From Ascidiaceihabitans donghaensis (lineage in GTDB: Bacteria; Pseudomonadota; Alphaproteobacteria; Rhodobacterales; Rhodobacteraceae): a DNA stretch of 64,000 bases. Position 1 is the first letter of the stretch, and the number at the start of each line of letters is the position of its first letter. Where the stretch lies: the NCBI RefSeq assembly GCF_900302465.1, contig NZ_OMOR01000003.1:1-64000 (forward strand), given 5' to 3'. Shown piece by piece: positions 42,005-64,000 of this stretch. Below the pieces are notes generated by a model. It made no database searches, was not told the DNA's origin, and saw nothing but the letters and a program-made list of their open reading frames with translations. A program made the position numbers and the translations under genes.

Positions 42005-42055
42005 GACTCGAGACACAGCTAAAGGTTCACTGTTTTCAACTAGGGAGATAAGTTA

Positions 42056-44079: not shown

Positions 44080-44116
44080 GCGTAACCACTATCCCATCTG
44101 TAAAAGGAGCTATTAA

Positions 44117-44614: not shown

Positions 44615-44643
44615 TTGCCGACCGGCTTTTGAAAATACAAAAG

Positions 44644-44671
44644 GGCCGGCGCATTGCGTCGGCCTTTTTTT
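44644..44671 (+). terminator. Rho-independent terminator between hcp and tssE
   Basis: GGCCGGCGC and GCGTCGGCC form a 9-bp stem (one G-U pair) with a 3-base loop, followed by seven T. It lies inside the T6SS operon, so tssE onward must depend on read-through or on a further promoter. Confidence 0.88.
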
Positions 44672-44712
44672 GGCCCAAAATCTGATAGGCAGCCTGACGG
44701 GCTAAATTAAAT

Positions 44713-45306
44713 ATGCGTTCATCCAGCACCGAAAAAGACGCGCGCGCACAGCGCCGGGGCGCCCGCCAAAACAAGCGGTTGGTGTCGATGATGCAGGTGT
44801 TCCGATCCGCCGCTGCCAACAAGACCGCCCAACGCGATATGGCCGTGCGCGACGGCGAAGATACCAATCTAACCACCCGTTCCAAACAAATCCGTGAAAG
44901 CGTTGATGAAAGCGAATTGCGCAACCACCTGAACATCGATCTGGATTTCCTAATGGCAACCACCCGTTTGGATTCCATCGTTGATTTGGAAGAAGACAGC
45001 TATGTGGAACGGTCTATCCTGAATTACGGGTTCCGGGATCTGTCCAAGCTGACGCGGTCCCACACAACCGACCAGAAGATCGCCGAAAGCATCCGCGAAT
45101 CCATGATCCGCCATGAACCGCGCCTGATCCCCGAAAGCATCAAAGTCACCATTGTTCCCGAAGCCGACAGCGCCACGGGCCGCGTGTCTTACGAGGTCTT
45201 CGCCGTGATGGTCGCGGACCCTATTGATCTGCCTTTGGATTTTGTCGCCGAAGTCGACATGGGGGCCTGCAAAGTCAAGATGAAGCGCCTGCGGGTGTCC
45301 TCATGA
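44713..45306 (+). CDS. tssE: T6SS baseplate protein TssE (gp25-like)
   Basis: A 197-residue baseplate protein. The C-terminal 110 residues form the gp25/lysozyme-like domain with VERSILNYGFRDLSKLTR, ESIRESMIRHEPRLI and PLDFVAEVDM near the end. The N-terminal 80 residues are basic and predicted helical, longer than in many TssE proteins. Its stop codon overlaps the tssF ATG by 4 bp. It nucleates sheath assembly with TssF, TssG and TssK. The gene begins 42 bp after a terminator, without a clear promoter in between. Confidence 0.92.
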   Translation: MRSSSTEKDARAQRRGARQNKRLVSMMQVFRSAAANKTAQRDMAVRDGEDTNLTTRSKQIRESVDESELRNHLNIDLDFLMATTRLDSIVDLEEDSYVERSILNYGFRDLSKLTRSHTTDQKIAESIRESMIRHEPRLIPESIKVTIVPEADSATGRVSYEVFAVMVADPIDLPLDFVAEVDMGACKVKMKRLRVSS

Positions 45307-47222: not shown

Positions 47223-48217
47223 CCGCAATAGAAGACAAAGGGGCCGAAGACGCCTTTCGCCGCGGCCTTTTTGCGACGCTGCGCGAATTGGAACGGCAAC
47301 ATCCCGACAAACCCCGCATCGGGCGGTCCGTGCGGCTAAAAGACGAATACATCGCCATCGGTCAGGACCCGACATTGGCTTTCCCGTCTTCTGACATCCG
47401 CCGCTATGAACGCCGCCCCGACGGCAAAATGGATATCCGGTCACAGGTTCTGGGCTTTTTCGGCCCCCAAGGTGCGCTGCCTTTGGATGTCACTAAAGAA
47501 GCCGCCGAATGGAAGGCTGCAGGCGACGAAAGCTTTGTGCGCTTCACCGATATGCTGGGCACACGTTTCTTTCAGCTGTTCTTTCGTGCCTGGTCCGACG
47601 CCCATGCGATCAGCCAGTTCGACCATCCCGAAAGTGACCGGTTTGCCAGCTATATTGGTGCTCTTAGCGGAGTGTCCACGCCCGCATTTTTGGAAAAAGA
47701 CAGCATCGAAGATGTGCACAAAGCGTCGCTTGTGCCGCTTCATGCCAACCGGGTCAAAAGCCCTGTGCGTTTGCGCCAGCTGATCGAATTGCATTTGGGG
47801 GCTCAGGTCGAAGTTGTCGAACACGCGCCTTCGTGGCTGGATTTTGAAGAAGCGGACCAGAACCGCATGGGCCAGCGCGGCAGCATGCTGGGGCAGAACA
47901 TGTTTCTGGGTGCGCGAATGCAGACCGTCAATGACCGGATCGAATTGAAGATCCAGACCCGCAGCCTGAAAGACTATCGGCGCTATTTGCCGGGTGGTCT
48001 GGCCCACAAAAACCTTGAAGATCTGGTGTTCTGGTATCTGGGCAAAACAATCGAAGTGGGTGTGGAATTGTCCCTGCCCGCCGAAGAAATTCCGCCTGCG
48101 CAGTTGGGGCAGACGGTGGAACTGGGATGGATGGCCGCCGTCCTTCCCGCAAATGACAACACAAAGAAGACTGGCTTTGTGACAGTCGCCAAGTACACTT
48201 TGGGCCAAGCCGCATAA
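47219..48217 (+). CDS. tssG: T6SS baseplate protein TssG
   Basis: A 332-residue TssG (VasB/ImpH). Family features are the N-terminal AFRRGLFATLRELERQHPDKPRIGRS, FPSSDIRRYERR, QVLGFFGPQGALPLDVT, ARTSxxDAHAIS-like FRAWSDAHAISQF and the later LGQNMFLGARMQTVNDRI. It acts with TssF and TssK in the wedge complex. It overlaps tssF by 4 bp and is followed after 39 bp by clpV. Confidence 0.95.
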   Translation: MTAIEDKGAEDAFRRGLFATLRELERQHPDKPRIGRSVRLKDEYIAIGQDPTLAFPSSDIRRYERRPDGKMDIRSQVLGFFGPQGALPLDVTKEAAEWKAAGDESFVRFTDMLGTRFFQLFFRAWSDAHAISQFDHPESDRFASYIGALSGVSTPAFLEKDSIEDVHKASLVPLHANRVKSPVRLRQLIELHLGAQVEVVEHAPSWLDFEEADQNRMGQRGSMLGQNMFLGARMQTVNDRIELKIQTRSLKDYRRYLPGGLAHKNLEDLVFWYLGKTIEVGVELSLPAEEIPPAQLGQTVELGWMAAVLPANDNTKKTGFVTVAKYTLGQAA

Positions 48218-48256
48218 AAAATGGCAGCCTGTTTATAACGAATTAGGGTGAGGGAT

Positions 48257-50905
48257 ATGACAGAAATTACGATTGAAAAATACGCCGGTAAAATGAATCG
48301 CGCGGGCTATGACGCATTTTTGCAGTCGATGCGCTTTGCGCGCGGCGAAGGCAACCGCCACGTGGAATTGGTCCATTGGCTGTTTCACGCCATCAGCAAC
48401 CAGAAATGCGATATCTCAACCACGCTCGCTGAATTGAAGATCGACCGCGGCGCAGTCCTGAAGGCGCTTGATAAATCCATGGCGTCCTTGGCCAAGAACG
48501 TCACCGAGAACCCGCAAATTTCGCAGACTTTGGCCGATGCGCTAAACTCGGCTTGGGTCTATGCCACCTTGTTCTTTGGCGAAGCCCAAATTCGCACAGG
48601 CCATGTGTTGGTTGCGATCCTGAACGACCCGACATTGCGCCGCGAGTTGCTGTCCTCTGTGTCGATGTTGTCCGAACTTTCCGTGGATCACATCAGCAAG
48701 GAAACCCGCGCCCTTTGGGGAAGCTCTGAAGAAGAAGACATGCGGCCAATGGATGGCTCCGGTCTTGCGTCTGGTGGGTCAGGCGACGGCGCGTCTGCGG
48801 CAGGTGGTGCGGCCACCGCTTTGGGTCGCTATTCCCAGGACATGACAGCCGAGGCCGCAGAGGGCAACATGGACCCCATCGTGGGCCGCGACGAGGAAAT
48901 CCGCCAGATCGTTGACGTGCTGTTGCGCCGCCGCCAGAACAACCCGATCCTGACGGGCGAAGCAGGCGTGGGCAAAACCGCCGTTGTTGAAGGCTTTGCC
49001 CAACGTCTCGCCGCCGGTGACGTGCCGCCCAAGCTGAAAGGCACCCGCCTGCACGCTTTGGACATTCAAGCCATGCAAGCCGGTGCGTCGATGAAAGGCG
49101 AATTCGAGGAACGCCTGAAATCCGTCATCGACGAGGTGCAGTCTTCGCCCACCCCCATCATTCTGTTCATCGACGAAGCCCATACGCTGATTGGTGCAGG
49201 CGGGTCCGCAGGCACAGGCGATGCCGCGAACCTGCTGAAACCCGCCTTGGCGCGTGGCACCTTGCGCACCATTGGCGCGACGACCTTCGCAGAATACCGC
49301 ACGTATTTTGAAAAAGACCCGGCCCTGACCCGCCGTTTCCAGCCTGTGAATGTCGAAGAACCCGACATCGACAAATGCTGCTACATGATGCGCGGCATTC
49401 TGGGGCCGATGGAAAAGCACCACCAGGTCCGCATCTCGGACGAGGCCATTGTGGCCGCCGTGTCCCTGTCCGCCCGCTACATCCCCTCGCGCCAGTTGCC
49501 GGACAAAGCCGTGTCTTTGCTGGATACCGCTTGCGCCCGCGTGGCCGTGTCTCAGGCCAGCACCCCTGCCCGCATCGCGGATTTCAAAGCGCTGATTGCA
49601 TCGCTTGAGAAAGAGATCGAAGGCAAAATTTCGCAACGTGATCTGGGCGAGACCAACGAGGAACGCCTGCTGGAAGCCCAAGCGCAGAAAGGCAAAGCAG
49701 AAGCTGATCTGGTGGAAGCCGAAGCGATGTATGCGACGGAAAAAGGCGTGGTCGACGCCATTCTTGATCTGCGCCGCCGCATTGCCGAAGACGGCGAGGC
49801 CGACGCGGAAATGTCCGACGACGAAATGCGCACCGACATGGCCAAGCGCATGGCAGAGTTGGAAGCCACAGACGCCGACAACCGCATGGTCTATGCCCAC
49901 GTGGATGAACAGGCCGTGGCCTCTGTCATCTCCGATTGGACAGGCATCCCAGCGGGCCGCATGGTCACGGATGAGTTGGAACAAATCCTGCAATTGTCCG
50001 AACATTTGGGCGAGCGTGTCATTGGTCAGGATCACGGGTTGAAGATGATCTCCAAGCGCATTGAGACATCCCGCGCGGGCCTCTCTAACCCCAACAAACC
50101 CATCGGGGTGTTCATGTTGGCAGGCCCCTCTGGCGTTGGTAAAACCGAAACCGCGCTGGCGCTGGCCGAAACGCTTTATGGTGGCGAACAAAACATCATC
50201 ACCATCAACATGTCCGAATTCCAAGAGGCGCACTCGGTGTCCCTGCTGAAAGGCGCACCTCCCGGCTATGTCGGCTACGGCGAAGGCGGGCGTCTGACCG
50301 AAGCGGTGCGGCGCAAGCCCTATTCCGTGGTGCTTTTGGACGAGGTCGAAAAGGCCCACCCCGACATCCACGAACTGTTCTTTCAGGTGTTCGACAAAGG
50401 CATCATGGAGGACGGCAACGGGCGGGCGATCAACTTCAAAAACTGCCTGATCTTGCTGACGTCCAACGTGGGCACCGATGTGATCATGGAGATGGGCCAA
50501 AACGGCGAGGTCGTGCCAGACTTTGACGAACTTGACGCCGCGATGAAGCCGTTCTTGCTCGAAGTCTTCCCGCCCGCCTTGCTGGGCCGGATCGTGACGA
50601 TCCCGTATTTCCCATTGGGCCACGAAGTGCTGGGCGGCATCACCCGTTTGAAGCTGAATTCTGTGGTGAAACGCCTGTCGGATGCGCATGGCGCAAAACT
50701 GACCTATTCCGACGAGGTGCTGGCCCATATCGTCGATCAATGCCGCGACCCCGACAGCGGCGGGCGGATGATCGACAACATCATCTCCAATTCAATCCTG
50801 CCCGACCTGTCGCGTCAGGTCTTGGCGCGCATGGTGTCGGGCGAAGAAATGAAAACGGTAGAGATCACGCTGAAAGACGATACTTACGACTACGTGTTTA
50901 CCTAA
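48257..50905 (+). CDS. clpV: T6SS sheath-recycling AAA+ ATPase ClpV (TssH)
   Basis: An 882-residue class I AAA+ unfoldase: N-terminal Clp repeat domain (residues 8-150), first ATPase domain (Walker A GEAGVGKTA, Walker B IILFIDEAHTLIGAGG), coiled-coil middle domain, second ATPase domain (Walker A GPSGVGKTETALALAE, Walker B SVVLLDEVEKAH) and ClpB_D2-small C-terminal domain. It binds contracted TssC and recycles the sheath. The ATG lies behind GAGGG; a GTG three codons earlier overlaps that site. It is the last gene of the plus-strand T6SS operon. Confidence 0.96.
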   Translation: MTEITIEKYAGKMNRAGYDAFLQSMRFARGEGNRHVELVHWLFHAISNQKCDISTTLAELKIDRGAVLKALDKSMASLAKNVTENPQISQTLADALNSAWVYATLFFGEAQIRTGHVLVAILNDPTLRRELLSSVSMLSELSVDHISKETRALWGSSEEEDMRPMDGSGLASGGSGDGASAAGGAATALGRYSQDMTAEAAEGNMDPIVGRDEEIRQIVDVLLRRRQNNPILTGEAGVGKTAVVEGFAQRLAAGDVPPKLKGTRLHALDIQAMQAGASMKGEFEERLKSVIDEVQSSPTPIILFIDEAHTLIGAGGSAGTGDAANLLKPALARGTLRTIGATTFAEYRTYFEKDPALTRRFQPVNVEEPDIDKCCYMMRGILGPMEKHHQVRISDEAIVAAVSLSARYIPSRQLPDKAVSLLDTACARVAVSQASTPARIADFKALIASLEKEIEGKISQRDLGETNEERLLEAQAQKGKAEADLVEAEAMYATEKGVVDAILDLRRRIAEDGEADAEMSDDEMRTDMAKRMAELEATDADNRMVYAHVDEQAVASVISDWTGIPAGRMVTDELEQILQLSEHLGERVIGQDHGLKMISKRIETSRAGLSNPNKPIGVFMLAGPSGVGKTETALALAETLYGGEQNIITINMSEFQEAHSVSLLKGAPPGYVGYGEGGRLTEAVRRKPYSVVLLDEVEKAHPDIHELFFQVFDKGIMEDGNGRAINFKNCLILLTSNVGTDVIMEMGQNGEVVPDFDELDAAMKPFLLEVFPPALLGRIVTIPYFPLGHEVLGGITRLKLNSVVKRLSDAHGAKLTYSDEVLAHIVDQCRDPDSGGRMIDNIISNSILPDLSRQVLARMVSGEEMKTVEITLKDDTYDYVFT

Positions 50906-51864: not shown

Positions 51865-54180
51865 TCACCCCACCTCTTTCAGCACCTGATCCACAAGGTC
51901 CTTGTAGACCTTGACCTCGGGCGACACGGGCTTGGGCGGGGCGGCAACCACGACGCTACCCTTGCCCCGTCCGCGCATCTTCCGATCCGCCCAGTTTTTC
52001 AGATCAAGCACAGAATAGTTACGCAGGAACGGGTTGGCTTTGACCACCCCCGCCCCCATCAGACGCGCGATGGTGTCGTCGTTGGCGGCACTCAGCACAG
52101 TGTGCGCCCCCCCTGGCCCCAAAAAGTGCGATAGATAAAGCCGGCCGGCCGTGATGTTGTGGCCGCGCTTGCGCAAGAAGCTTTCGTTTTCCTGCGCCAG
52201 TTTGGTCACCATCTCACGGGACAAAGTCGGATCACGGCGCAAATTCAGAAGGTCCTGCTTGGACATCGTGCTGTGTAACTCGGGGCGATAATCGCGCATC
52301 ATGCGCAACCATGTGCTGGAAATAAACTGCCCCAGCCCCGTGGCAGAAGACAACGGGTTTTTGGCGTTGGCATTGCCCGCGCTTTCGACCTTGATGATCT
52401 GCGCCACCAATGCCTCGACAGCGCCGGATGCCACCACAGGTGCGCCCCCATTCAGCAGCCCCATAGGATCAACGGGCGTGCCGTTCAATCGTGTCTCGAA
52501 GTGCAAATGCGGTCCTGTTGAACGTCCGGTCGTCCCAACATACCCAATCAGATCACCGGCCTGCACCAAGCCACCTGTTTTCCCTTTCGGGGCAAATTTG
52601 TTCAGGTGCGCATAGCGGGATTCAAGACCGCCGGGGTGCTTGATAATCACCAGATTGCCGTAACCCTTGCCGTCGCCTGCATGGCTGACTTTGCCGGGCG
52701 CTGCGGCATAAACAGGCGTTCCAGTGGGGGCCGCCCAATCAATGCCCGCATGCAAACGCACAACTTTGTGGATGGGATGTTTGCGGGGGCCGAACTTGGA
52801 CGTCAAAATACCCTGTACCGGCGAAATAATCGCTCCGCCAGAAGACGGGCGGCGCTTGTTGGGGTCGAAACACTTGAACCCCCCTTCGTCTTTGTCGGGA
52901 ATAACATAGCATTGCATATCACCCGATGGCCCCTTGATGGCGGCATACATCAACTGCCCTGATGCACTGCCACCCGGCCCGTGTTGTGGGGCGTAAGCAA
53001 AGGTGAACTGATCGCCGGTCTTGGCGAATTTATCCAGATCATGCACCTTGGACATCAAAGCGATCATTTCACCGACCAGCGTGGTGGGGACGCCATTGCG
53101 CACGGCTGCGGAATATACCGCATCCAGCAACCGAAATTGACCATCGGTGGATCCGGTGTCTTCTTCCTCGGTGCCTGCCAGTTCCATCAGATTGTCTTCG
53201 AACCACGGGTCAGAGGCGATCATGACGTTGCCCGCGCGGGTTTGCGCGATCGACCCCACATAGCCCTGAGGGTTGTAATAAGACAGTTGCAACAAGCGCT
53301 GTGTGTTGGGGCCAAGGGGGGCCAAGCGCAATGCAATGATGGATCCCTTGGGGGGCGCATCCACACCGGAAATCAATCCGGTGATCTGCGGGGCAAGGCG
53401 TTTCGCATCCACCTCTGTGATACCGTTCTGGACCAGAACATCCAACAACGTGCGTTCGACCTTGGCCTCGATGACACGGTCCGAAAACAGGGCGATGCGA
53501 AAGGCCTCGCGGCGCACAAAGGCCACGCTGGTGGTGTTTTCAACTTCGGTCTTTTGCACAAAATCTTCTTCGGCGCTGACACCGCTTTCAAGACTTGCCC
53601 CGTAACTGTCGGTCAAATCACCCAAATCGACATCGCCATCGATATTGGCCAGAATATCGATGGGTTCCGCGTTCATGGCGGCATCCATCACTTCCAACGC
53701 CTGACTGCGTTGGGCCTGGAAAAAGGCGAAATCCTCGCGGGTTGATGGTAGGGCCGTCATCAGCTGGCGTTGCATCACCACAAGATTGTCGCGCATCACG
53801 ACCAAACGCTTGGGCTGCTGCAACCCGAAGCGGCGAATGTCCAAGACACCGGGTCCTGCAGTTTCACGCATCACACCTGTGCCGCCACTGGCATCGAACC
53901 GCAAAATCGTCGGATCACCTGCAATATCAACAAAGGCGTTGTTGGGCACGACCGGGGCCACAACGATGTCGGATTCAATCTGCACCAGTTGCAAATCATC
54001 CTGACCGCCACCGAACAGGCCCGCAACCTTGGCCCCCATCCCCGTCAAAAACCAAAGCGGAAGAACAATCACGACGAACGGCAACAAACCGAACACAGCA
54101 AATCGCAACCCGTTGCGGCGCCACTTGCGACCACGGGCTTTCTTGCGTCCTTGCTGAAACCTTGGATCAACTTCGAACAT
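51865..54180 (-). CDS. Membrane-anchored M23 endopeptidase fused to lytic transglycosylase
   Basis: A 771-residue protein. After a basic cytoplasmic start there is one membrane helix (residues 26-46); the rest is periplasmic. Residues 440-580 are an M23/LytM peptidase with zinc ligands His477 and Asp481 (HAGIDW) and His558/His560 (HLHFE). Residues 590-710 are an SLT-type lytic transglycosylase with catalytic Glu599 (KVESAGN) and the following SATGLGQFISSTW. The N-terminal 400 residues are of unknown fold. Both catalytic sets look intact, so it should cut both glycan strands and peptide stems, as needed for a T6SS membrane complex to cross the wall. It is read away from clpV, 17 bp after the caspase-like gene. 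Confidence 0.9.
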   Translation of the reverse strand: MFEVDPRFQQGRKKARGRKWRRNGLRFAVFGLLPFVVIVLPLWFLTGMGAKVAGLFGGGQDDLQLVQIESDIVVAPVVPNNAFVDIAGDPTILRFDASGGTGVMRETAGPGVLDIRRFGLQQPKRLVVMRDNLVVMQRQLMTALPSTREDFAFFQAQRSQALEVMDAAMNAEPIDILANIDGDVDLGDLTDSYGASLESGVSAEEDFVQKTEVENTTSVAFVRREAFRIALFSDRVIEAKVERTLLDVLVQNGITEVDAKRLAPQITGLISGVDAPPKGSIIALRLAPLGPNTQRLLQLSYYNPQGYVGSIAQTRAGNVMIASDPWFEDNLMELAGTEEEDTGSTDGQFRLLDAVYSAAVRNGVPTTLVGEMIALMSKVHDLDKFAKTGDQFTFAYAPQHGPGGSASGQLMYAAIKGPSGDMQCYVIPDKDEGGFKCFDPNKRRPSSGGAIISPVQGILTSKFGPRKHPIHKVVRLHAGIDWAAPTGTPVYAAAPGKVSHAGDGKGYGNLVIIKHPGGLESRYAHLNKFAPKGKTGGLVQAGDLIGYVGTTGRSTGPHLHFETRLNGTPVDPMGLLNGGAPVVASGAVEALVAQIIKVESAGNANAKNPLSSATGLGQFISSTWLRMMRDYRPELHSTMSKQDLLNLRRDPTLSREMVTKLAQENESFLRKRGHNITAGRLYLSHFLGPGGAHTVLSAANDDTIARLMGAGVVKANPFLRNYSVLDLKNWADRKMRGRGKGSVVVAAPPKPVSPEVKVYKDLVDQVLKEVG

Positions 54181-54197: not shown

Positions 54198-55706
54198 TCA
54201 CCGGAAGATGCCCGAACCCAGATTGTTGGTATTGATGCCACCGCTGGACGCCGGTGCTTGCTGGCGTGGCTGCTGTCGGGGTTGTTGACGCGGCTGCTGA
54301 CGGGTGGTGCCAGTGTTGTTGCGTGTCCGGTTACCCGCGTTTGAATTGTTACGCGGTGCCGCGGCCTGCACCTGAACAGGACAGGTAACCGCGTCGTTCA
54401 GCAAGATTTTGCGGAACAGTTCGATGGTGGCCTGTTCGGTCGGGGCCGTTTCACCGATCTGCGTGAAGTAAGCACGCACAGAGCGCCGTGATCCCGGTCC
54501 AAAGGCCCCGTCAATGCCGCCAGTGTAGCAATTCATACGTTTCAATTCAGTTTGCAGCGCCCGCGCCACATCCCCTGCCGGATCAAATGCGCCGCTCGCC
54601 ACCAATTGAATGTATAGATCGGGGTCTTGCGCCTTGATGCCTTGGCGCGCTTCAAAACCGGTGCCATCCAGCCCTGTGCCGGCCAACGATCCGCCATCTT
54701 CAGTCGGTGAAAACGCGGCGTTGGTGGGACGGATCACACCCACGATAATCGAAGGTGTGGGCAGACCTGCCGCCGTTGCCACAGCTTGCGGGGCCGCACG
54801 CGGTGCTGCGTTGAAAATCTGCACGCCGCCGGTGCCTGTGCTGGACGGGCGGATCGGGGTAAACGCCACCGATTGCACCGCGCCGCTTACAGTCGTTCCG
54901 GACCCTGTGCCCGATCCTATACTCGTTCCCGTAACGGTGACAGGTGCAACGGCTGTGACCTGAACCGCACGATTGACAGGCGCGGAAATGACCACAGCGT
55001 CGCTGGTCACAGTGACATCGGATGATACAGATGCGGTGGCCCCCAGCATAACCGGCGCCTTCAACCCGTTGGCGACCATGGCCTGCCCCGGCAGGGCCTT
55101 GAACGCGTTCATAACGCCAACACCACTGGTACCCAAAGCCGCAAGCAACCGCTGCGAATAGCCCATTTCGTCTTCTGCCGTTGCGGCACATTCAGCCGCC
55201 TCCGACATCGCGTAGGATATGGAAATGCCGTCAAGATCGGCTTCTTCGGCAGGCAAGGTGGCGGTGTCCTCTGGCATGTAACAGTTTTGCACAAACACCA
55301 GCACGTTTTTCGCGCCTGCCGCGCGGAACTTTTGGGCCGTTCGCACCACGGGCCAGCCACCGCTTGGCGCGTCGCCCAATTGCGCACCCATCAGATACGT
55401 CACGCCCTCGCGCACTTCGGTGCGTCCGGAAAAATACAAAACAACCGTGTCCGCCGCGCGGTTGCCCAAAGCCAGCGTATTTGCATCGGTGTTCTGCCGG
55501 CGGATCACGTCAAACCCCAACCCGATCAAAGCGCGCGACATTTCCAAAGCGTCATCGGCAGGCCCGTCCAGACGGTCCGCGCCATAGCGTTCATTGCCCA
55601 CAACATAAGCCAAGCCCTGCTGCGCCGAAACCATCTGCGGCGCCAGTCCCATGGCGCCCAAAATCAAAGCAAACCCAAATCCACAAACGGATGTATGACG
55701 CGGCAT
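54198..55706 (-). CDS. Exported caspase-fold protein, probably catalytically dead, with peptidoglycan-binding domain
   Basis: A 502-residue protein with a signal peptide (GFALILGAMGLAPQMVSAQ). Residues 31-210 match a caspase-like p20 fold (LAYVVGNERYG, GPADDALEMSRALIGLGFDVI, ADTVVLYFSG). At the catalytic His-Gly position, Arg95-Thr96 stand in for it (SGRT instead of SGHG); a Cys142 remains in VFVQNCYMP. It is therefore probably a pseudo-protease. A long Val/Thr/Ser/Gly-rich linker follows, then a PG_binding_1-like domain (MNCYTGGIDGAFGPGSRRSVRAYF, about 405-430) and a Gln/Arg/Pro repeat tail. AGGAG precedes the ATG. It is co-transcribed with the M23/SLT gene and may hold or position that enzyme. 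Confidence 0.8.
   Translation of the reverse strand: MPRHTSVCGFGFALILGAMGLAPQMVSAQQGLAYVVGNERYGADRLDGPADDALEMSRALIGLGFDVIRRQNTDANTLALGNRAADTVVLYFSGRTEVREGVTYLMGAQLGDAPSGGWPVVRTAQKFRAAGAKNVLVFVQNCYMPEDTATLPAEEADLDGISISYAMSEAAECAATAEDEMGYSQRLLAALGTSGVGVMNAFKALPGQAMVANGLKAPVMLGATASVSSDVTVTSDAVVISAPVNRAVQVTAVAPVTVTGTSIGSGTGSGTTVSGAVQSVAFTPIRPSSTGTGGVQIFNAAPRAAPQAVATAAGLPTPSIIVGVIRPTNAAFSPTEDGGSLAGTGLDGTGFEARQGIKAQDPDLYIQLVASGAFDPAGDVARALQTELKRMNCYTGGIDGAFGPGSRRSVRAYFTQIGETAPTEQATIELFRKILLNDAVTCPVQVQAAAPRNNSNAGNRTRNNTGTTRQQPRQQPRQQPRQQAPASSGGINTNNLGSGIFR
54258..54302 (-). repeat. Arg-Gln-Gln-Pro tandem repeat in the caspase-like gene
   Basis: Four tandem copies of a 12-base unit encode RQQP-RQQP-RQQP-RQQ near the C terminus. 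Such a short in-frame repeat can change length between strains. Confidence 0.7.
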
Positions 55707-55797: not shown

Positions 55798-56217
55798 CTA
55801 TTCCGGTTGTGCGGACACAAACAACGTCCAGCGTTCTGTGCCTTGGGTATCGACCTCCAGAAAGTCTGCCTCTAGAAAGCCGCGCACCAGACAATCGGTC
55901 TGGATGTCTTCCGAAAAACGGTTGGGGCGGACGCAAAGCGGAAAAGACCCGTTCAACAGTTCTTTGCCAAAAACATCTTGCGCAAACACATACACACGCG
56001 GCGTCGTCAGCGCATCACGGATCGCGTTAGAGCATTGATTTGGGCCGATTTTCCACCAGCCGCGCGTCCGGATTTGTCCACGCACCTCGTGACCTATGGC
56101 GACATTTATGACGTCAAACGACTGATTGCATACGGCAAACTGTGCTTTGGCGGGCACAGCGCAAACAGTCAGCGCCAAAGCCATCAAAACTGCCTTAAAA
56201 ATATTATAATTCAACAT
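55798..56217 (-). CDS. Exported DUF1036-family protein
   Basis: A 139-residue protein with a signal peptide (AVLMALALTVCAVPAKA) and a DUF1036-type domain: FAVCNQSFDVINVAIGHEV, the GWWKIGPNQCSNAIRD block, RVYVFAQDV, FPLCVRPNRF and DCLVRGF. Four conserved Cys probably form two disulfides in the periplasm. The family is small and without known function to me. It lies 91 bp upstream of the caspase-like gene on the same strand, so it may be the first gene of that operon; it is divergent from another exported protein gene. The promoter region holds an inverted repeat. Confidence 0.82.
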   Translation of the reverse strand: MLNYNIFKAVLMALALTVCAVPAKAQFAVCNQSFDVINVAIGHEVRGQIRTRGWWKIGPNQCSNAIRDALTTPRVYVFAQDVFGKELLNGSFPLCVRPNRFSEDIQTDCLVRGFLEADFLEVDTQGTERWTLFVSAQPE

Positions 56218-56944: not shown

Positions 56945-57041
56945 CTCTGTAGTTGACTTCAAAACGTAAACTTGCCCCAATTGCACTGACTTAAACGCAG
57001 CGCCCTTTTTGTGCTGCGGTATCAGCATTTGGGGGTTGAGT

Positions 57042-57488
57042 ATGAAACAGATTTTTAAAAATGCATTTCGCGGTGCTGCGTTGGCCGGATCGATTGTCGG
57101 TCTGGGGGCCGCACAGCTTATGGCGCAAGACGATGCGCGGTTTTCTTTGGAACTGAACAATGCCGCGCAGACGGATGCAGGCGGGTGCCGCCTGACATAT
57201 GTGGCCACGAATCAATCTGACCTTGGCCTGAACCAAACCGCCTATCAGGTGGGTGTTTTTGATGCAGGCGGCGTGGTGCGCCGTATTTTGGTGCTGGAAT
57301 TTGGCGCTTTGACCGCTGGCAAAACACGCATCGTGTTGTTCGACCTTGCAGATCAGCCCTGCACCGACATTTCGCGCATTATTGTGAACACGGTTGCCGA
57401 ATGTACCTTGGCAGACGGGCAAGCATCTGATTTCTGCCTGACAGGCCTTGCCACCTCGTCACGCACCGATATCCAGTTCGGCCTATAA
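57042..57488 (+). CDS. Small exported protein of unknown function ahead of exbB
   Basis: A 148-residue protein with a signal peptide (GAALAGSIVGLGAAQLMA). The mature part is a beta-rich domain: RFSLELNNAAQTDAGGCRLTYVATNQSDLGLNQ, KTRIVLFDLADQPCTDISRIIVNTVAECTL and ASDFCLTGLATSSRTDIQFGL. It contains four Cys that are suited to two disulfides. This immunoglobulin-like pattern (a long first strand followed by a VGVFDAGGVV turn) resembles small periplasmic proteins, but I cannot name a family. GTTGAG lies before the ATG. It begins 57 bp before the ExbB gene and is likely in the same operon. It could be a periplasmic ligand of the TonB-like protein. Confidence 0.75.
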   Translation: MKQIFKNAFRGAALAGSIVGLGAAQLMAQDDARFSLELNNAAQTDAGGCRLTYVATNQSDLGLNQTAYQVGVFDAGGVVRRILVLEFGALTAGKTRIVLFDLADQPCTDISRIIVNTVAECTLADGQASDFCLTGLATSSRTDIQFGL

Positions 57489-57545: not shown

Positions 57546-58175
57546 ATGCTAAGCGCATTTGATCCCGCCACAATTATCGTTTTTGCCGCTTTGGCAATCC
57601 TGTCCGTGATGGCGGTGACGGTGACCTTCTTTAAGGTGATCCAGTTCCGGCGCATGGGTGTGGGCAAAAACAAAACCGCCGAAGCGATCATCGACAGCTG
57701 GTTGAACGGGCGCCCCGAAGAAGCGATGCGGGCTGCAAGCGAACGCGAAACCGTGCTGGCGCGGGTTTTGCAGGCGGTGCTGTCGGGGTTGCGGGCGCGC
57801 CCATCGGATTTCAGCTACGCCGAAGAACTGGGGCGGCAAACGGCGCTTGTGGAACTGTCGGCGATGTCCACACGGATGCGATTGCTGGAAGCGGTTGTGC
57901 AAGCGGCACCTATGCTGGGTCTGCTTGGTACTGTGATCGGGATGATCGACGCCTTTGGCACATTGGCATCCGCCCAAGGCGCTGTTGATCCCGCGCTGTT
58001 GGCAGGGGGCATCTGGACAGCGTTGACAACAACCGCCGTGGGCCTTGCCGTGGCACTGGTCGCGTTCTTCATCGCCAACATTTTCGAAAGCCGGATCGAG
58101 GGCGAACGACAATCCATCGAAACCCTCATATCGGCGGCCATTCATGGGCGTGTAGACACCTCGGCCCCACGCTAA
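57546..58175 (+). CDS. MotA/TolQ/ExbB-family proton channel subunit
   Basis: A 209-residue inner-membrane protein with three helices. The TolQ/ExbB core is clear: TTLVELSAMSTRMRLLEAVVQAAPMLGLLGTVIGMIDAFG for helix 2, and GGIWTALTTTAVGLAVALVAFFIANIFESRIE for helix 3 with its conserved Thr residues. The pentamer surrounds a dimer of ExbD-type subunits and uses the proton-motive force to move a TonB/TolA-type protein. GGAGTAAG precedes the ATG. It is followed by two ExbD-type genes and a TonB/TolA-like gene in one operon. Set inside a T6SS locus, it is unlikely to be the housekeeping Tol or Exb system. Confidence 0.9.
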   Translation: MLSAFDPATIIVFAALAILSVMAVTVTFFKVIQFRRMGVGKNKTAEAIIDSWLNGRPEEAMRAASERETVLARVLQAVLSGLRARPSDFSYAEELGRQTALVELSAMSTRMRLLEAVVQAAPMLGLLGTVIGMIDAFGTLASAQGAVDPALLAGGIWTALTTTAVGLAVALVAFFIANIFESRIEGERQSIETLISAAIHGRVDTSAPR

Positions 58176-58194
58176 TCGGCGTCGGGCGCGAGAT

Positions 58195-58641
58195 ATGACA
58201 CAGTCACGCATAGAACTGCCGGGGGCCAGAAAACGGTCTTACGTCTTTGCATTGACGCCTTTGGCCGATGCGATGTTTCAGCTGTTGATTTTCTTCATGC
58301 TGACCTCATCGCTGACGCCCTATTCCTTGCTGACCTTGGCCAGCGGTCCAGGCACTGCATCGGGCGACACCCAAGAACAGGTGCAAGAAGAACCAAGTGG
58401 CGCAGACAGCGATCCGGCAGCCACATGGACTGTCGAAGATGGTCAGGTTCTGGCAAATGGTCAGGCCTTCGGGTTCGACAGCCTGCCGCAACTGGCCGAA
58501 ATTCTGGTGGCGGCCGACACCCCGCGCGTCATGCTGATCTCGTCCCCCCGCGCCCGGGTTCAAGACCTTGTGACGGTGCTGGAGATTCTGGCAGCCGCAC
58601 AAATCACATCCGTGCAAATCGTATCCATGGGGGGGCCGTGA
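58195..58641 (+). CDS. ExbD/TolR-family protein 1 (canonical Asp)
   Basis: A 148-residue bitopic protein. A basic N terminus is followed by the membrane helix TPLADAMFQLLIFFMLTSSL, in which Asp25 is the conserved proton-carrying residue. The periplasmic part ends in the ExbD/TolR-like domain (AEILVAADTPRVMLISSPRARVQDLVTVLEILAAAQITSVQIVSM). It starts 19 bp after the channel gene and its stop lies just before the second ExbD-type gene. With its Asp intact it should be the active stator partner. Confidence 0.87.
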   Translation: MTQSRIELPGARKRSYVFALTPLADAMFQLLIFFMLTSSLTPYSLLTLASGPGTASGDTQEQVQEEPSGADSDPAATWTVEDGQVLANGQAFGFDSLPQLAEILVAADTPRVMLISSPRARVQDLVTVLEILAAAQITSVQIVSMGGP

Positions 58642-58642
58642 C

Positions 58643-59047
58643 ATGACCCGTCCCCTGCCCCGCCCCAAGAAAGCCACGCAACTTGATGTGTCTTTGGCCA
58701 TCGTCAACATCGTGCTTTTGCTGATCTTTTTCTTTTTGGCAACGGGGCGTCTGCTGAACCCGGTTGGCCCTGATCTGGAGCTTGCGGAAACCTCTGAACT
58801 GCCGCTGGACCAACTGCCATCCCCTATTTTGGTGGTGGCGTCAGATGGCACATGGGAATTGGACGGCAACCCGCTGGCCCCTGATTTTCTGGATATTGCT
58901 TTGCAAAGCATGCCCCAGCCCGTGGTTTTGCATGTGTTGATCAACCGCGCGGCTCCTGCCAATGCGCTGATTGGCATCCTCAACCGTCCTGAACTGGTCG
59001 AAACCGAAGTGAAACTGGTCACGCTGCACAGGCGGAGCGGCCAATGA
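58643..59047 (+). CDS. ExbD/TolR-family protein 2 (lacks the canonical Asp)
   Basis: A 134-residue protein with the ExbD layout: short basic N terminus, one membrane helix (VSLAIVNIVLLLIFFFLA), then a periplasmic domain (SPILVVASDGTWELDGNPLAP and VVLHVLINRAAPANALIGILNRPELVETEVKLVTL). Aligned on LLIFF, the proton-carrying Asp of ExbD is replaced by Val21, with Asn22 next to it. It is therefore probably unable to carry protons and may dimerise with the first ExbD-type protein. It starts one base after the stop of the first ExbD-type gene and its end overlaps the TonB-like gene by 4 bp. Confidence 0.82.
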   Translation: MTRPLPRPKKATQLDVSLAIVNIVLLLIFFFLATGRLLNPVGPDLELAETSELPLDQLPSPILVVASDGTWELDGNPLAPDFLDIALQSMPQPVVLHVLINRAAPANALIGILNRPELVETEVKLVTLHRRSGQ

Positions 59048-60312
59048 TTCTTCAACCTCACCGCGAACGCACCTCAAGCTGGTTGATTGCGCTGTCCATG
59101 TCGACAGCTGTGCATGCCGGCGCCTTTGTTTACGCCTTTGATTTGCTGCCCTTTGGTGTGGCCCCTCCCCCGATTCCTGCGGCCTTTCCACAGATCGAAA
59201 TCACCAACGTGGTCATGCAGCCTGAAACGCCGCTGGCCACCCCCGAGGTCGAAACCCCCGAACCGGTCGATCCGTCAGCAGCCGAGGCTTTGCAACCAGA
59301 AGCGCTTGCTGCTGTAGAACCCGATCCTGTGGAAGCGGTTGAACCAGAAACCGCAGCCCCTGTTGACGAAGCCGAACAATCCGATCTGGAACCCGAAGCT
59401 TTGGCAGCGGTAGAGCCCGAAGACACAGCAACAGCCATTGAACCGGAAGACACAACCGCAGCCCTTGAACCCGAGAACCTGAGCCCGGTTTTACCCGAGG
59501 ACGGCGCAGTTTTGCAGGGGGCTACTGTGGCCCCAACCACCCCCATCGCGCCTGAACGGATTGCAGCGGTGGCGCCCGCAGCCGGCGAAGCGGTTGGCGT
59601 TGTCACAACGGCCCCGCGTGTTGGTGCCGTGAACGCCATTCCTGACAGACCCACCCCGACCCCGGTGGCACAACCGGCTGCAGAACCGCCCTCTCCCGAG
59701 GATCTGGCCCTGCTTGAGGTCATCGACCGTATTCGCACACGTTTTGGCGATCGCTGTCTGGTGGCTTTGCCCCAGTCGGGGGGCGCAACCCCCAGCGTTG
59801 TTTTGGTGTCCGATCAGGACCGCACCATGGCCACCTTTGAACGCGAGGTTCTAAGCGACCCGAACCTGCCTGTTGATGTGCAAAACCTGCTGGTGGACGC
59901 CCGCCAATGTGCCGCGGTGGAATTTGCCCGCGCCCGCGCCGCCTATCCGCTGTTCAAGGTTGATCTGCAACTGCGCAGCCGCGATGTGGCATCCGGAGAA
60001 CGCTTGATCGGCACCATCGGGAACGTCGGCGGGCGCTACACATCCTTGTTGCTGGTAGATGACAACGGCGTGGTTCAGGACTTGCGCCGCTTTACGCGGT
60101 TTGTGGGGTCCAGCGCCGAATTTGACATCCCCGTCACCCGTGACGGATCCGCCCGCGACACCAGCCAGCTTCTTGTTGTGCTGACCACCCCGGGCCGTCC
60201 GGAAACAGTCACCAACCTGTCAGGCCGCTTGGCAGAGGACTTTTTCGGGCCGCTGGACACGGAACTTGGAACACAGGGCCAAATCGCCATCCTGCCTTTC
60301 TTTGTCAGATAG
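59044..60312 (+). CDS. TonB/TolA-like protein with a C-terminal domain shared with the PpkA-type kinase
   Basis: A 422-residue bitopic protein. A TonB/TolA-like N terminus with a single helix (SSWLIALSMSTAVHAGAFVYA, residues 11-32) precedes a long acidic Pro/Glu/Ala spacer with EPE-type repeats (residues 55-210) instead of the usual Pro-Lys spacer. Residues 220-422 form a globular periplasmic domain with Cys238 and Cys289 (QCAAVEFAR), SGERLIGTIGNVGGRY and a final QIAILPFF. That domain resembles the periplasmic end of the PpkA-type kinase encoded next door (QCAALDFAR, SGGTVLGRVRDVRGR). It is the last gene of the ExbB-ExbD-ExbD operon, with ATGA coupling. It is convergent with the kinase gene 33 bp away. 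No classic TonB CTD is seen. Confidence 0.75.
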   Translation: MILQPHRERTSSWLIALSMSTAVHAGAFVYAFDLLPFGVAPPPIPAAFPQIEITNVVMQPETPLATPEVETPEPVDPSAAEALQPEALAAVEPDPVEAVEPETAAPVDEAEQSDLEPEALAAVEPEDTATAIEPEDTTAALEPENLSPVLPEDGAVLQGATVAPTTPIAPERIAAVAPAAGEAVGVVTTAPRVGAVNAIPDRPTPTPVAQPAAEPPSPEDLALLEVIDRIRTRFGDRCLVALPQSGGATPSVVLVSDQDRTMATFEREVLSDPNLPVDVQNLLVDARQCAAVEFARARAAYPLFKVDLQLRSRDVASGERLIGTIGNVGGRYTSLLLVDDNGVVQDLRRFTRFVGSSAEFDIPVTRDGSARDTSQLLVVLTTPGRPETVTNLSGRLAEDFFGPLDTELGTQGQIAILPFFVR

Positions 60313-60345: not shown

Positions 60346-62571
60346 TCAGTTCGGTTGCAGTTCAAAAAACCCTGTGCCAGCCGCTGCTGTGCCACCATTT
60401 TTGGCAATTTCCTGCAATAACAAAGGCATGACTTTTTGCACATCGTCACCGTCTTTGATCGCCGCCAGCGTCAACAAAGGGTCGTTGGACGCCAAAGCGA
60501 TCAGCATTTGCGGCGCGGCCTCTGACCCTTCGCCAAGGCTCATTCCGAATTCGAAGGTTTGGGACCCGTCGGGTTGCGCCTGCAGTCTGGGCGACAGGTT
60601 GTAAACGCCACCCGCAGCACTCACGATGCTAAGCCACACAGTCCGACCGCGCACATCACGCACGCGCCCCAGAACAGTACCGCCACTTTGCACCGCATCA
60701 GTGTCCAGCGTCACCACAGGTTCCACCGCTTCACGCCCCTGCAGGGCCCGCGCAAAGTCCAGCGCTGCACATTGGCTGTCGTTGATCTGGCGGTTCACCG
60801 TCGCAGGTTCCGCGCCAAATTTTTCGCCATAGGCTTGCGGCAATTGCGCCAATGCCCCTTCGATGGCTGCAAAAACCTCAAGCTTGCCGGAATTTTCACC
60901 CGATGTGATCCGCGTGGCAAAGGTGCAGGCCGATCCCGCATTGTAGCCTGCCAAAAACCCTTGGCGCGTGTCTGCATCGGGCGCAGGCATCGCCGCTGCC
61001 GCAGTTTCGGTTTCCGTGGGCTCTGTTGCGGTTTCCACCACTTCGGCACTGTCGAACATGCCTGATTGCCACGCGCCTATGCCCGCTCCTGCAACGACCA
61101 ATGCCAGCACCGCCGCAATCAGCCCCGTTTTGCTTTTGGGCGCATCAGCTGTGGTCGGCGCCATCGTTTGCTGGGGCGGAATGGTCTGTGAAAATGGAAC
61201 TTCCGTAGAACCGGCCCCAAAGGGGCTTTGCGACACGTCACCCGTCCCGATACCAATCCCCGTTTGCGTCATCGGGGCCTGCGTCTGTGGAAAACTGGTG
61301 TGTTGGGTAGAGCCGGGCGGTTGCTGCAGCCCGGTTTGGGCACCGAACCCGCCCGTCTGGATAGGCGCACCCGTTTGTTGCGGGGCCATAGTACCGGGCG
61401 TCATTGTGCCAGGGGCCATGGTCCCCGGCGGCATAGATCCCGCGATCATGGTTTGATCCATGTCACCGCCACCCGGTAAAGGTGCCGCACCTGTGTAGCG
61501 CGCTGGTATCGCTTGGCTGCCTTCCACCATCGCGGCCACGTCACTCATGCGGGCGGGGCGGAACTGCGGATCAGGTTCAAGCATATGCGCCAGAAGCGGC
61601 TGCAATTCGGGATAAATATCACTGAGATCAGGAATGGTGCGGCGCGCGTTCACGGCCTCGACAACGGACGATCCCATGTCGATGGGCGTGCCCCGCACCG
61701 CCGCTGCAATCAACAAGCCAAGCCCATAAATGTCGGTGCGCGGACTGATGACACTGTCAAAGTGACCCAGTTGTTCAGGCGAGATATATTTGAACTTGCC
61801 CGCCAGCTGGCCGTGCAAGGTGCCTTCGGTCATTTCAGTGGATTTGGCGATGCCAAAATCGATCAAAACCGCATTGTCGACGTTCCCTTCCGGCAACATC
61901 ACATTGTCTGGCGACAGGTCACGGTGGGTGACTTCACGCGCGTGCGCCTTGTCGAGACCCTTGGCCAATCGCACCAGCAAACGCAGGGATTGATCCAGCG
62001 AAATGGGGCCGCTTTTGGCGACCATATCCGACAACGGCACCCCGTCGATGAAATCCATAATCAGGCAGTAACGGCCCAATTCGGGATCAGGGATAAAGTT
62101 GAAATAACGTACAATGGCCTCGTCGGCCAGTTGGCTTAAAATACGGGCTTCGCGTTTGAAAAGGGTCAGAACCTTTTCGTCTTTGGACAGCGATGGCAGC
62201 ACAATCTTGATGGCCACAGGGTCGCCAGTGTAGATGTGTTCGCCGCGATAAACTTCGCCCATCCCGCCGGCGCTGATCAGTTGCTGCACCTTGTAGTTGT
62301 TGTTGATGACGGCGCCAATAATGGCGTCGGCTTCAGAATCCGCAGGGGTTTCTTCAGGGGCGGCGTCCTGCGCCGGAGCTTGGGTTTCCGCATTTCCGGC
62401 TGCAACTTCGGCAGGCTGTTCGGGGTCCTGAGGCGCGTCCTCGGCAGGGCTTGCCGCCGGTACAGGCGGAATTGGCACTGGCGGAACGGGCAAAGGTGTA
62501 TTGATGCCAGCGATACGGGTTTTGTCGTCGTCGTCCTCAGGTGGGGGCGCGGTGTTGTCGGGGCCAGACAT
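60346..62571 (-). CDS. ppkA: T6SS membrane serine/threonine kinase, PpkA type
   Basis: A 741-residue kinase. A Pro-rich lead is followed by the kinase domain (about 93-345): glycine loop SAGGMGEVY, Lys112 in VAIKIV, catalytic HRDLSPDN (Asp208) and DFG (Asp228). The usual Lys of the HRDLKxxN loop is Ser. A Thr/Met/Gln-rich juxtamembrane linker with PGTM repeats leads to one membrane helix (472-491) and a periplasmic domain with Cys549 and Cys601 (SQCAALDFAR). PpkA senses a periplasmic or membrane signal and phosphorylates T6SS targets read by Fha. The periplasmic domain appears homologous to that of the TonB/TolA-like protein next door. Start ATG lies two bases after the pppA stop. Confidence 0.9.
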   Translation of the reverse strand: MSGPDNTAPPPEDDDDKTRIAGINTPLPVPPVPIPPVPAASPAEDAPQDPEQPAEVAAGNAETQAPAQDAAPEETPADSEADAIIGAVINNNYKVQQLISAGGMGEVYRGEHIYTGDPVAIKIVLPSLSKDEKVLTLFKREARILSQLADEAIVRYFNFIPDPELGRYCLIMDFIDGVPLSDMVAKSGPISLDQSLRLLVRLAKGLDKAHAREVTHRDLSPDNVMLPEGNVDNAVLIDFGIAKSTEMTEGTLHGQLAGKFKYISPEQLGHFDSVISPRTDIYGLGLLIAAAVRGTPIDMGSSVVEAVNARRTIPDLSDIYPELQPLLAHMLEPDPQFRPARMSDVAAMVEGSQAIPARYTGAAPLPGGGDMDQTMIAGSMPPGTMAPGTMTPGTMAPQQTGAPIQTGGFGAQTGLQQPPGSTQHTSFPQTQAPMTQTGIGIGTGDVSQSPFGAGSTEVPFSQTIPPQQTMAPTTADAPKSKTGLIAAVLALVVAGAGIGAWQSGMFDSAEVVETATEPTETETAAAAMPAPDADTRQGFLAGYNAGSACTFATRITSGENSGKLEVFAAIEGALAQLPQAYGEKFGAEPATVNRQINDSQCAALDFARALQGREAVEPVVTLDTDAVQSGGTVLGRVRDVRGRTVWLSIVSAAGGVYNLSPRLQAQPDGSQTFEFGMSLGEGSEAAPQMLIALASNDPLLTLAAIKDGDDVQKVMPLLLQEIAKNGGTAAAGTGFFELQPN

Positions 62572-62573
62572 GG

Positions 62574-63332
62574 CTACACCCCACCATCTTGCGCCATGCA
62601 CTGCATGACAACGCAGGTGACGTTGTCCTTGGCGCCGCGGTCCAACGTCACGGTGATCAATTCATTGCAAACATCTTGCGTGGCCTCGCCAGAACCAATG
62701 CCTTCGAGATGGTCGTGGATGTCGCTGTCGGACAGGTGTTCCGTCAATCCGTCAGAGCACAGCAAAAACACGTCACCGTCTTGCAACTGCCCTTCGATGA
62801 TGTCGCAGCGTGGATCGTCCCAGACCCCCACGGCACGGGTGATGACGTTTTTGCGGGGCCATGTTTCGGCTTCGGCCTCTGAAATGGCACCGTTGGACAG
62901 CAGTTCCTGTACTTCGGTGTGATCCGTGGTTTGCTGCACAAGCTGGCCGTCGCGCAGAAGATAGATGCGGCTGTCACCGGACCACACACAGGCGTAGGTG
63001 TCTTCAAAGGTCAAAAGCGCCACAACTGTCGATCCAACCGTGCCGCCCTGCTGCACAGAAGGATGGGCGCGGATGGTGTCGTGGGCGCGGGTCAGGCGCT
63101 CCATAAAGCGGGCAGTCAGGTCTTGCAAAGACGATGACATACCGACAGAGGCGACTTCATGTGTAATGGCCTGCGACGCGAAATCACCCGCGTCATGGCC
63201 GCCCATGCCGTCCGCGACAACCCACACGCCAAAGTCCTGACGGGTCATCAGGCTGTCTTCGTTGTGATCGCGCACGCGGCCTTGGTCTGTGGCTTTGCCT
63301 GTGCTGAAGCGGAAATATTCGTTCTCGATCAT
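62574..63332 (-). CDS. pppA: T6SS protein phosphatase PppA (PP2C family)
   Basis: A 252-residue PP2C/SpoIIE-type metal-dependent phosphatase. Metal-binding motifs are complete: GRVRDHNEDSLM (Asp), VVADGMGGHDAGD, LLCSDGLTEHL and RGAKDNVTCVVM. It reverses PpkA phosphorylation of Fha-type targets. It lies between tagF and ppkA, with its ATG overlapping the tagF stop region by 4 bp and ppkA starting two bases after its own stop, so the three are translated together. No membrane helix is seen. Confidence 0.94.
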   Translation of the reverse strand: MIENEYFRFSTGKATDQGRVRDHNEDSLMTRQDFGVWVVADGMGGHDAGDFASQAITHEVASVGMSSSLQDLTARFMERLTRAHDTIRAHPSVQQGGTVGSTVVALLTFEDTYACVWSGDSRIYLLRDGQLVQQTTDHTEVQELLSNGAISEAEAETWPRKNVITRAVGVWDDPRCDIIEGQLQDGDVFLLCSDGLTEHLSDSDIHDHLEGIGSGEATQDVCNELITVTLDRGAKDNVTCVVMQCMAQDGGV

Positions 63333-64000
63333 GTGTCCTCGTCCCCTGTTACCAGGTCGGTTTCTTGTTGTTCTGTATCTTGTATGGCGCTTTCGGCCAC
63401 GGGGTCAGCCACGTGTCCAGGCTGTGGCTCGGGTGCGCCTACGCCTGTGATCATCCACGCCAGCGCATCGGGGCCGGGCATGCCCGCCGCCCCCATAAAG
63501 GCCGTGGCACGCACACCGGGCACACCCGCTGACCACCAATAGCTGCGGTGGGACACCGCGCGGACATGATCCACCGGCCCCGCGGCCTTCAAAAGTGCAG
63601 TGGGATCAGGTTCGGGGTTCACAGCCCAATAAAACGCGGGTTCGGGGTCTTGCGCCGCTGCAGGATGCCCGCCAGCCGCAGGTATCAATGCCCCCAAGCT
63701 ATCTGGCACAATCCCGAGGGCTGCCCCTGCCATCTGTTCAGCAGCCGCATAGAACGTCTGGTCGTGGTCCAAAACAGGCGGGCTTTGCGATGCGCCACCC
63801 TGATCCACCAGCGTCAAGGGAAACCGCCGCCCCACCTTATCGCGGCTGGGACAAATGACCCCGCGCACAGGCCACGGTGTGTCCAGCACCGACGGGCCGA
63901 TCCAAAAGCGGATGGGTTGCATCGCATCATAAACCGGCTGCCAATCGTCGCCCACATATTGACGGATGTGGCTAAGGCTTGGGACCAACCAGCTTTCAAA
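63329..64000 (-). CDS. tagF: T6SS-associated protein TagF (5' partial)
   Basis: The frame is open to the right edge of the window, so the start is beyond it; a TTG at 63988 is internal (residues FESW precede it in frame). The visible 223 residues match the TagF/ImpM family: DDWQPVYDAMQPIRFWIGPSVLD, RGVICPSRDKVGRRFPLTLVD and the later FYWAV and RSYWWSAG. TagF represses T6SS activity after translation by sequestering components in related systems. In Agrobacterium-like loci tagF lies next to tssM and tssL, which may be upstream (to the right) here. The C terminus has an acidic extension (TEQQETDLVTGDEDT) that overlaps the pppA start. Confidence 0.9.
   Translation of the reverse strand, partial: FESWLVPSLSHIRQYVGDDWQPVYDAMQPIRFWIGPSVLDTPWPVRGVICPSRDKVGRRFPLTLVDQGGASQSPPVLDHDQTFYAAAEQMAGAALGIVPDSLGALIPAAGGHPAAAQDPEPAFYWAVNPEPDPTALLKAAGPVDHVRAVSHRSYWWSAGVPGVRATAFMGAAGMPGPDALAWMITGVGAPEPQPGHVADPVAESAIQDTEQQETDLVTGDEDT

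Follow-up and report, generated by a model that had tools for sequence, protein, structure and literature searches.

The window, a 64,000-nucleotide stretch of Ascidiaceihabitans donghaensis (contig NZ_OMOR01000003.1, positions 1 to 64,000), carries a type VI secretion system (T6SS) locus in which four forward-strand genes spanning 57546-60312 code for a channel of the ExbB/TolQ type, two proteins of the ExbD type, and a transducer resembling TonB or TolA. From their sequences we predict that these genes specify a proton-motive-force-driven motor; motors with a transducer of this kind are called type A (T6SS-A) here. The motor genes, together with a small companion gene upstream, are as follows:

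57009..57488, + strand: small exported protein, companion of the ExbB-ExbD-ExbD family (start likely near 57042, by eye)
57546..58175, + strand: ExbB/TolQ-type proton channel subunit of the T6SS-A motor (PF01618, E 4.2e-27)
58195..58641, + strand: ExbD1, transmembrane Asp kept (PF02472, 5.5e-13)
58643..59047, + strand: ExbD2, Asn at the transmembrane Asp position (PF02472, 4.7e-4; 20.7 bits, below the 25.4-bit cut-off)
59044..60312, + strand: TonB/TolA-like transducer of 422 amino acids (membrane helix with SxxxH, Ala/Pro/Glu-rich linker, C-terminal two-Cys domain at ~residues 215-422)

The spacings between the motor genes are 19 bp and 1 bp, followed by a 4-bp overlap, and the reading of the four as a coupled ExbB, ExbD, ExbD, and TonB/TolA-like set, made in a first-pass annotation of the bare sequence, is confirmed. 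In ExbB, no variation occurs across 86 aligned rows in the LGLLGT columns or in the TTA and G columns of the helix that follows, while the transmembrane Asp of ExbD1 is found in 86 of 87 aligned rows, the remaining row being a gap. ExbD2 does not carry this Asp, having Asn at the position in 85 of 87 rows, Ser in one, and Asp in one, and the ExbD pair may be asymmetric, with the proton-carrying Asp on ExbD1 only. The replacement is located at 58643-59047 of the window and at L012 8483-8866, and by eye the same Asn is present in ExbD2 of a second ExbD-ExbD set of this genome (haem-type, described below). The most hydrophobic stretch of the transducer contains SxxxH in 70 of 87 rows, AxxxH in 9, another residue followed by xxx-His in 5, and no His in 3, the stretch being perhaps misplaced in some of these last eight rows; the consulted part of a 2025 survey of periplasmic force transducers describes the conserved His of such a helix as binding the motor (PMC12204202). 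The transducer gave no Pfam or NCBIfam match up to E 1 and so has no recognizable TonB_C or TolA C-terminal domain. Given a second ExbD below its cut-off and a transducer free of matches, the first-pass calls on both were good ones. Taken together, ExbB, ExbD1, and the transducer display the sequence hallmarks of ExbBD/TolQR-type motors (i.e., the channel domain, the Asp, and the SxxxH helix).

The genome (4.08 Mb, seven contigs) contains four MotA/ExbB-family matches, the T6SS motor included. One lies in a Tol-Pal set on contig C1, comprising ybgC-tolQ-tolR (by eye), a tolA candidate without an NCBIfam match, and tolB, pal, and ybgF over their NCBIfam cut-offs, and another is a MotA-like gene (by eye). 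The last belongs to a set of receptor, small protein, ExbB, ExbD, ExbD, and TonB (G000:C1, ~1.777 Mb), named haem-type here because the best match of the receptor is a haem receptor model (below its cut-off) and the neighbouring genes resemble, by eye, those of a haem ATP-binding cassette (ABC) transporter. The first-pass annotation had allowed that its idea would fall if the genome lacked another tolQ-tolR-tolA set and the motor were simply the housekeeping Tol system. This candidate was rejected, since the genome has its own tolQ-tolR-tolB-pal-ybgF set; with separate Tol-Pal and haem-type TonB sets present, the T6SS-linked motor is not a housekeeping one.

In a phylogeny of 57 ExbB-family proteins, a kind of check that the first pass had proposed (the T6SS-A ExbBs are 30 chosen rows), the T6SS-A ExbBs form a single clade (support 100/99) with TolQ far off (100/100). 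The nearest neighbours of this clade are the haem-type ExbBs, weakly supported (94/57), and over 111 residues the small companion protein shares 37% identity (E 9e-24) with its counterpart in the haem operon. Both likenesses would suit a TonB-type uptake role, in which the motor belongs to a system that serves the T6SS or merely adjoins it and energises an outer-membrane receptor for a metal or other cargo, perhaps scavenged with the aid of the T6SS. We consider this improbable, given that the TonB of the haem-type set matches TIGR01352 at 5e-15, unlike the T6SS transducer with its empty C-terminal search.

Surrounding locus and recurrence across the order

The flanks are as the first pass described them, with peptidoglycan-cleaving and caspase-like genes on one side (a DUF1036 gene is also there) and ppkA-pppA-tagF on the other. 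The ppkA gene is convergent with the transducer gene, with 33 bp between their ends.

38962..50905, + strand: T6SS core (TagH/FHA, TssA, TssB, TssC, Hcp, TssE-like (gp25), TssF, TssG, and ClpV/TssH-type ATPase)
51865..54180, - strand: M23 metallopeptidase with SLT domain, likely a peptidoglycan hydrolase (PF01551 4.7e-34, PF01464 1.3e-5)
54198..55706, - strand: caspase-fold protein (PF00656 5.6e-7; weak, sub-cut-off peptidoglycan-binding match, PF01471 0.001)
55798..56217, - strand: DUF1036 exported protein of the cassette (PF06282 1e-29)
60346..62601, - strand: PpkA-like Ser/Thr kinase (PF00069 2.8e-33), with a hydrophobic stretch (by eye) between the kinase domain and the C-terminal domain
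62574..63332, - strand: PppA-like PP2C phosphatase (PF00481 3.4e-14; Stp1/IreP-type model 7.1e-61, 205.7 bits against a 230-bit cut-off)
63329..63988, - strand: TagF (PF09867 4.8e-18), its start beyond the window end, with a longer frame in L014

TssM, TssL (with an OmpA domain), and TssK follow just past the window end on the same 119-kb contig.

Using a profile of the transducer tip domain, we searched 292 genomes of one order for type A motors. The profile matched 37 genomes, comprising 35 with a strong transducer, one with a kinase match only (G148), and one weak match that was dropped. TssB and TssG each occur in 79 of the 292 genomes, the genome set being identical, and a T6SS is present in 34 of the 35 type A transducer genomes versus 79 of 292 overall (Fisher 2.4e-21). 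The transducer lies within 50 kb of tssG on the same contig in 27 of the 35; the other eight are four genomes of one genus in which it is >1 Mb from the T6SS, three in which it is on a contig other than that of tssG, and G280, which has no T6SS and whose operon stands at the start of an 11-kb contig. An operon found mainly away from T6SS genes, the other outcome that would have spoken against the first-pass idea, is therefore not what the genomes hold. In 31 of the 35 genomes the kinase tip was matched as well, and in 21 of the 35 its match is no more than 1.3 kb away from that of the transducer; two of the remaining four genomes, G036 and G240, encode a PpkA-like kinase with a similar-looking end (by eye).

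The gene order likewise recurs, as the first pass had suggested checking, across 80 public loci, where it reads M23-Casp-DUF1036-small-ExbB-ExbD-ExbD-transducer-PpkA-PppA-TagF-TssM-L-K. Among the public loci, ExbB was found in 78, ExbD1 in 79, ExbD2 in 79, the small protein in 75, the caspase-fold protein in 69, DUF1036 in 63, M23 in 54, TssH in 47, PppA in 45, PpkA in 44, and TssM in 41. All four motor genes occur together in 78 of the 80, which is more than chance, and the other two are contigs that break within the block or do not extend far enough to show it. In 60 loci the stretch includes a tss or tagF gene, and 10 of the other 20 are under 17 kb. A relative of the transducer is present on 16 plasmid records, of which seven were examined; in six of these it lies beside tss genes, and the seventh, a Thioclava plasmid stretch, has the kinase and no tss gene annotated within the stretch. 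We hold with high confidence that the T6SS-linked motor is real and widespread. In one genome with the motor >1 Mb from its T6SS (G015; L121 10376-19999), the M23 gene, two caspase-fold frames, DUF1036, the small gene, and the motor still lie together, and this intact copy makes the cassette look like a unit of its own.

Four loci first taken as motor-free (L108, L109, L110, and L112) were found to hold ExbB and ExbD genes and a transducer with a weak BON-like part and DUF4384, which we call type B. A profile from these four tips retrieved 29 strong transducers in the 292 genomes, all 29 in T6SS-bearing genomes, and weak matches in two further genomes without a T6SS (2.2e-9 and 5.7e-9). DUF4384 (PF14326) matches three type B transducers (2.8e-5, below cut-off; 5.9e-10; 3.6e-7), while neither type A tip, that of the transducer or that of the kinase, gave a match to it, although the two-Cys pattern is shared. 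The small companion protein was also matched in two type B loci (L108 and L109). In Leisingera methylohalidivorans, the type B motor stands beside tssA-B-C-hcp-tagJ-E-F-G-H; within 15 kb of the Qingshengfaniella copy, no T6SS gene is annotated. Types A (34) and B (29) overlap in two genomes, which brings the T6SS-bearing genomes that have a motor transducer to 61 of 79. The Leisingera stretch also bears on the uptake role, having a TonB-dependent siderophore receptor and iron ABC transporter genes ~8-12 kb from the motor; however, none of the seven examined type A plasmid stretches has an annotated TonB-dependent receptor (gene table incomplete).

Other features of the T6SS neighbourhood were noted. 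The gene at 50967-51851, between tssH and the M23 gene, is present in only 3 of the 80 loci and is possibly cargo or immunity, judging from position alone. Adjoining tssK (L014 11963-19483; G000:C3, ~71.9-79.5 kb) is a giant repeat protein of >2500 amino acids, autotransporter-like by eye, the end of which matches large T6SS-adjacent genes in several Paracoccus and Rhodovulum loci. Upstream of the core, 31234-34338 is a single frame of 1035 amino acids with an ArsP-type permease domain and FG-GAP and ASPIC/UnbV repeats, and 34908-38165 is a frame of 1086 amino acids with 4Fe-4S, DmmA-like, and 2Fe-2S parts.

A tip domain common to transducer and kinase

The tip of the window transducer is related to the C-terminal domain of the neighbouring PpkA-like kinase, both by BLASTP (2e-6) and by hhalign (99.5%, E 1.7e-22). 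The corresponding type B pair, transB and kinB, aligned at 98.5% (E 4e-15), while the four cross-type pairs reached only 0.3-9.1%, near background, and 36 control comparisons 18.9% at most. At E < 1e-3, the type A transducer profile (transA) matched 45 of 45 kinA rows and 0 of 53 type B rows, and the transB profile matched 24 of 24 kinB rows (20 of which were fetched because the type B profile matched them, and 4 not) and 0 of 133 type A rows. AlphaFold2 models of the type A tips were confident (predicted local distance difference test scores of 93.8 for the transducer and 95.3 for the kinase), with an identical order of secondary-structure elements in both. Sequence and models thus make a strong case that in type A the tip domain of the transducer is homologous to that of its kinase and specific to the type; for type B, where the rows were partly profile-selected, the sequence case for homology is good.

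The two T6SS types may have recruited the motor separately, each with the domain of its own kinase as the tip. A tip common to the kinase is a further point against the uptake role, and it narrows the range of tasks offered by the first pass (sensing, envelope remodelling, or effector gating), although the step that the motor would drive is our own inference.

T6SS lineages, TssJ, and alternative roles

A TssG tree built from 83 T6SSs has a branch with 100/100 support that sets 31 type A systems, G148, and G209 (a long-branch row of unsure placement) apart from the other 50; these comprise 29 type B systems, 18 with neither transducer, and three from genomes in which the motor is of type A (G073, G168, and G229). 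The motor is therefore present in 31 of the 33 T6SSs on the type A side, G148 and G209 being the exceptions, which argues against a passenger operon, carried along with the T6SS by plasmids or chromids and playing no part in it. While the 16 plasmid records would fit such a passenger, the motor is retained when unlinked from the T6SS, and a second T6SS type has its own ExbBD motor bearing the domain of its own kinase; we regard this explanation as very improbable. In the exceptional G148 (locus L118 2488-5436), the motor block is gone between the small gene and ppkA and the T6SS genes are kept, i.e., a natural motor deletion.

The lipoprotein TssJ (PF12790) was found in 16 of 292 genomes, all T6SS-bearing, with none among the 34 type A T6SS genomes and four among type B. 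By system, TssJ accompanies 4 of 63 T6SSs with a motor versus 12 of 20 without (59 have the motor only and 8 have neither; Fisher 1.5e-6). This distribution suits an explanation in which the motor powers the building or opening of the channel, driving peptidoglycan cutting by the M23/SLT enzyme and serving as an inner-outer membrane link in place of TssJ, with the PpkA-common domain as a docking module of the membrane complex rather than a sensor. The M23 and SLT, caspase-fold, and DUF1036 genes that travel with the motor, also in the far-from-T6SS copy of G015, are consistent with it. However, the anticorrelation comes down to just four independent pairs, with a sign test that is not significant, TssJ and a type B motor occur together in four T6SSs, PF12790 could miss a diverged TssJ, and no M23 gene is annotated beside the Leisingera type B motor (gene table incomplete). 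On balance we judge a channel-building role unlikely, if the most serious of the three alternatives.

Possible role of the motor in T6SS activation

The reading that we prefer, and to which we give about an even chance, is that the motor is a T6SS-dedicated, proton-driven force transducer acting on an envelope partner that is sensed by PpkA, thereby energising activation or positioning of the T6SS. From what is read in the sequence (the motor, its dedication to the T6SS, the type-specific tip sharing, and the conserved cassette), we infer the topology, a common partner, pulling, and an effect on PpkA. An ExbB oligomer with the ExbD1/ExbD2 pair, the Asp being on ExbD1 only, would move the TonB/TolA-like rod, the tip of which would be the same domain as that exposed by PpkA to the periplasm. 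With this domain in common, the rod would meet what PpkA meets, and both tips may engage one envelope partner, such as peptidoglycan, TssM, an anchor in the outer membrane, or each other. The motor would pull on this partner or remodel it and so energise a signal to PpkA, which would then phosphorylate Fha or TssL so that T6SS assembly is started or placed, perhaps with participation of the linked peptidoglycan hydrolase.

Several observations weigh against this proposal. G148 keeps its type A T6SS and a domain-bearing kinase without the whole ExbB-ExbD-ExbD-transducer block, so either the motor is dispensable there or that T6SS is decaying. In the four genomes of one genus, the cassette and the T6SS are >1 Mb apart, and in G168, G229, and G073 the type A motor is paired with a type B-kind TssG, a pattern that may reflect the movement of a motor-signalling module from one T6SS type to another. 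Neither transducer is found in 18 of the 79 T6SS-bearing genomes. The kinase matches the tip profile in only 18 of the 29 type B transducer genomes, and in none of the four that bear TssJ, while 7 of the 24 kinB rows, most of them profile-selected as noted, come from genomes with neither transducer, indicating that the kinase domain works without the motor. Linkage alone could also hold both tip domains in one locus.

TolQ-TolR-TolA is a proton-motive-force-driven inner-membrane motor with a periplasm-spanning rod, and the T6SS motor is predicted to be of this kind as well; it differs in its distant ExbB clade, in coexisting with a separate Tol set, and in having two ExbDs. From the ExbB-ExbD-TonB plan, as seen in the haem-type set, it differs in having the PpkA-common domain rather than TonB_C at its tip and in its place within a T6SS locus, while the gene plan (small protein, ExbB, ExbD, ExbD, transducer), the ExbD2 Asn, and the related ExbB are alike. 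To our knowledge, neither SiiAB nor GldLM has a tip in common with a T6SS kinase. These two, as described in the consulted parts of the sources, are ExbBD-type motors likewise devoted to secretion machines, although to other ones, the type I (SiiAB) and type IX (GldLM) secretion systems (PMC12204202, PMC8986121). The vWA-tipped force transducers in the consulted part of the 2025 survey similarly place a non-TonB domain on a TonB-like helix with adjoining motor genes, the tip domain being other than that of the T6SS motor (PMC12204202).

With its PpkA-like, PppA-like, TagF, and FHA genes, the locus also resembles the T6SS threonine-phosphorylation pathway of PpkA-PppA-Fha, in which the motor would stand in for the envelope input of TagQRST (Pseudomonas) or TssW (Acidovorax). 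TagST is an ABC-transporter-like pair. In the consulted parts of the sources, TagQRST acts upstream of PpkA in Pseudomonas and is absent from Agrobacterium (PMC3953482), and in Acidovorax citrulli TssW, which serves as an anchor in the outer membrane, sets the site of T6SS assembly and has PpkA, TssM, and, weakly, TssJ as binding partners (PMC12607579); neither is described there as an ion-driven motor. It is on these precedents that an ion-driven transducer would fill such an input role here.

The first pass knew of no described T6SS with an ExbBD-type motor, and our literature search agrees, with no such description among the open-access matches listed (subscription papers and preprints being outside the search). 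The main text of the 2025 survey, as consulted, contains neither "T6SS" nor "type VI" and gives the jobs of such motors as motility, phage defence, type I secretion, membrane stabilisation, and nutrient import (PMC12204202), and the consulted text of a survey of plasmid T6SSs contains no "ExbD".

A bolder form of our proposal, which we advance only tentatively, is that in this order the proton motive force acts as a gate on T6SS assembly, with a motor carrying a copy of the PpkA sensor working on the outer-membrane or peptidoglycan partner of PpkA. If so, the weapon would fire only in an energised cell, and where the envelope yields. The T6SS is regarded as powered by sheath contraction and ClpV; a dedicated ion-driven motor, seen in 61 of the 79 genomes of the order that have a T6SS, would bring a further source of energy to its activation or assembly. 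The motor would also give PpkA, the inputs of which are known in few species, a testable upstream partner. For the ExbBD/TolQR motor family, the T6SS would join the known jobs, and an asymmetric ExbD1/ExbD2 pair with a single Asp would be relevant to how such motors work.

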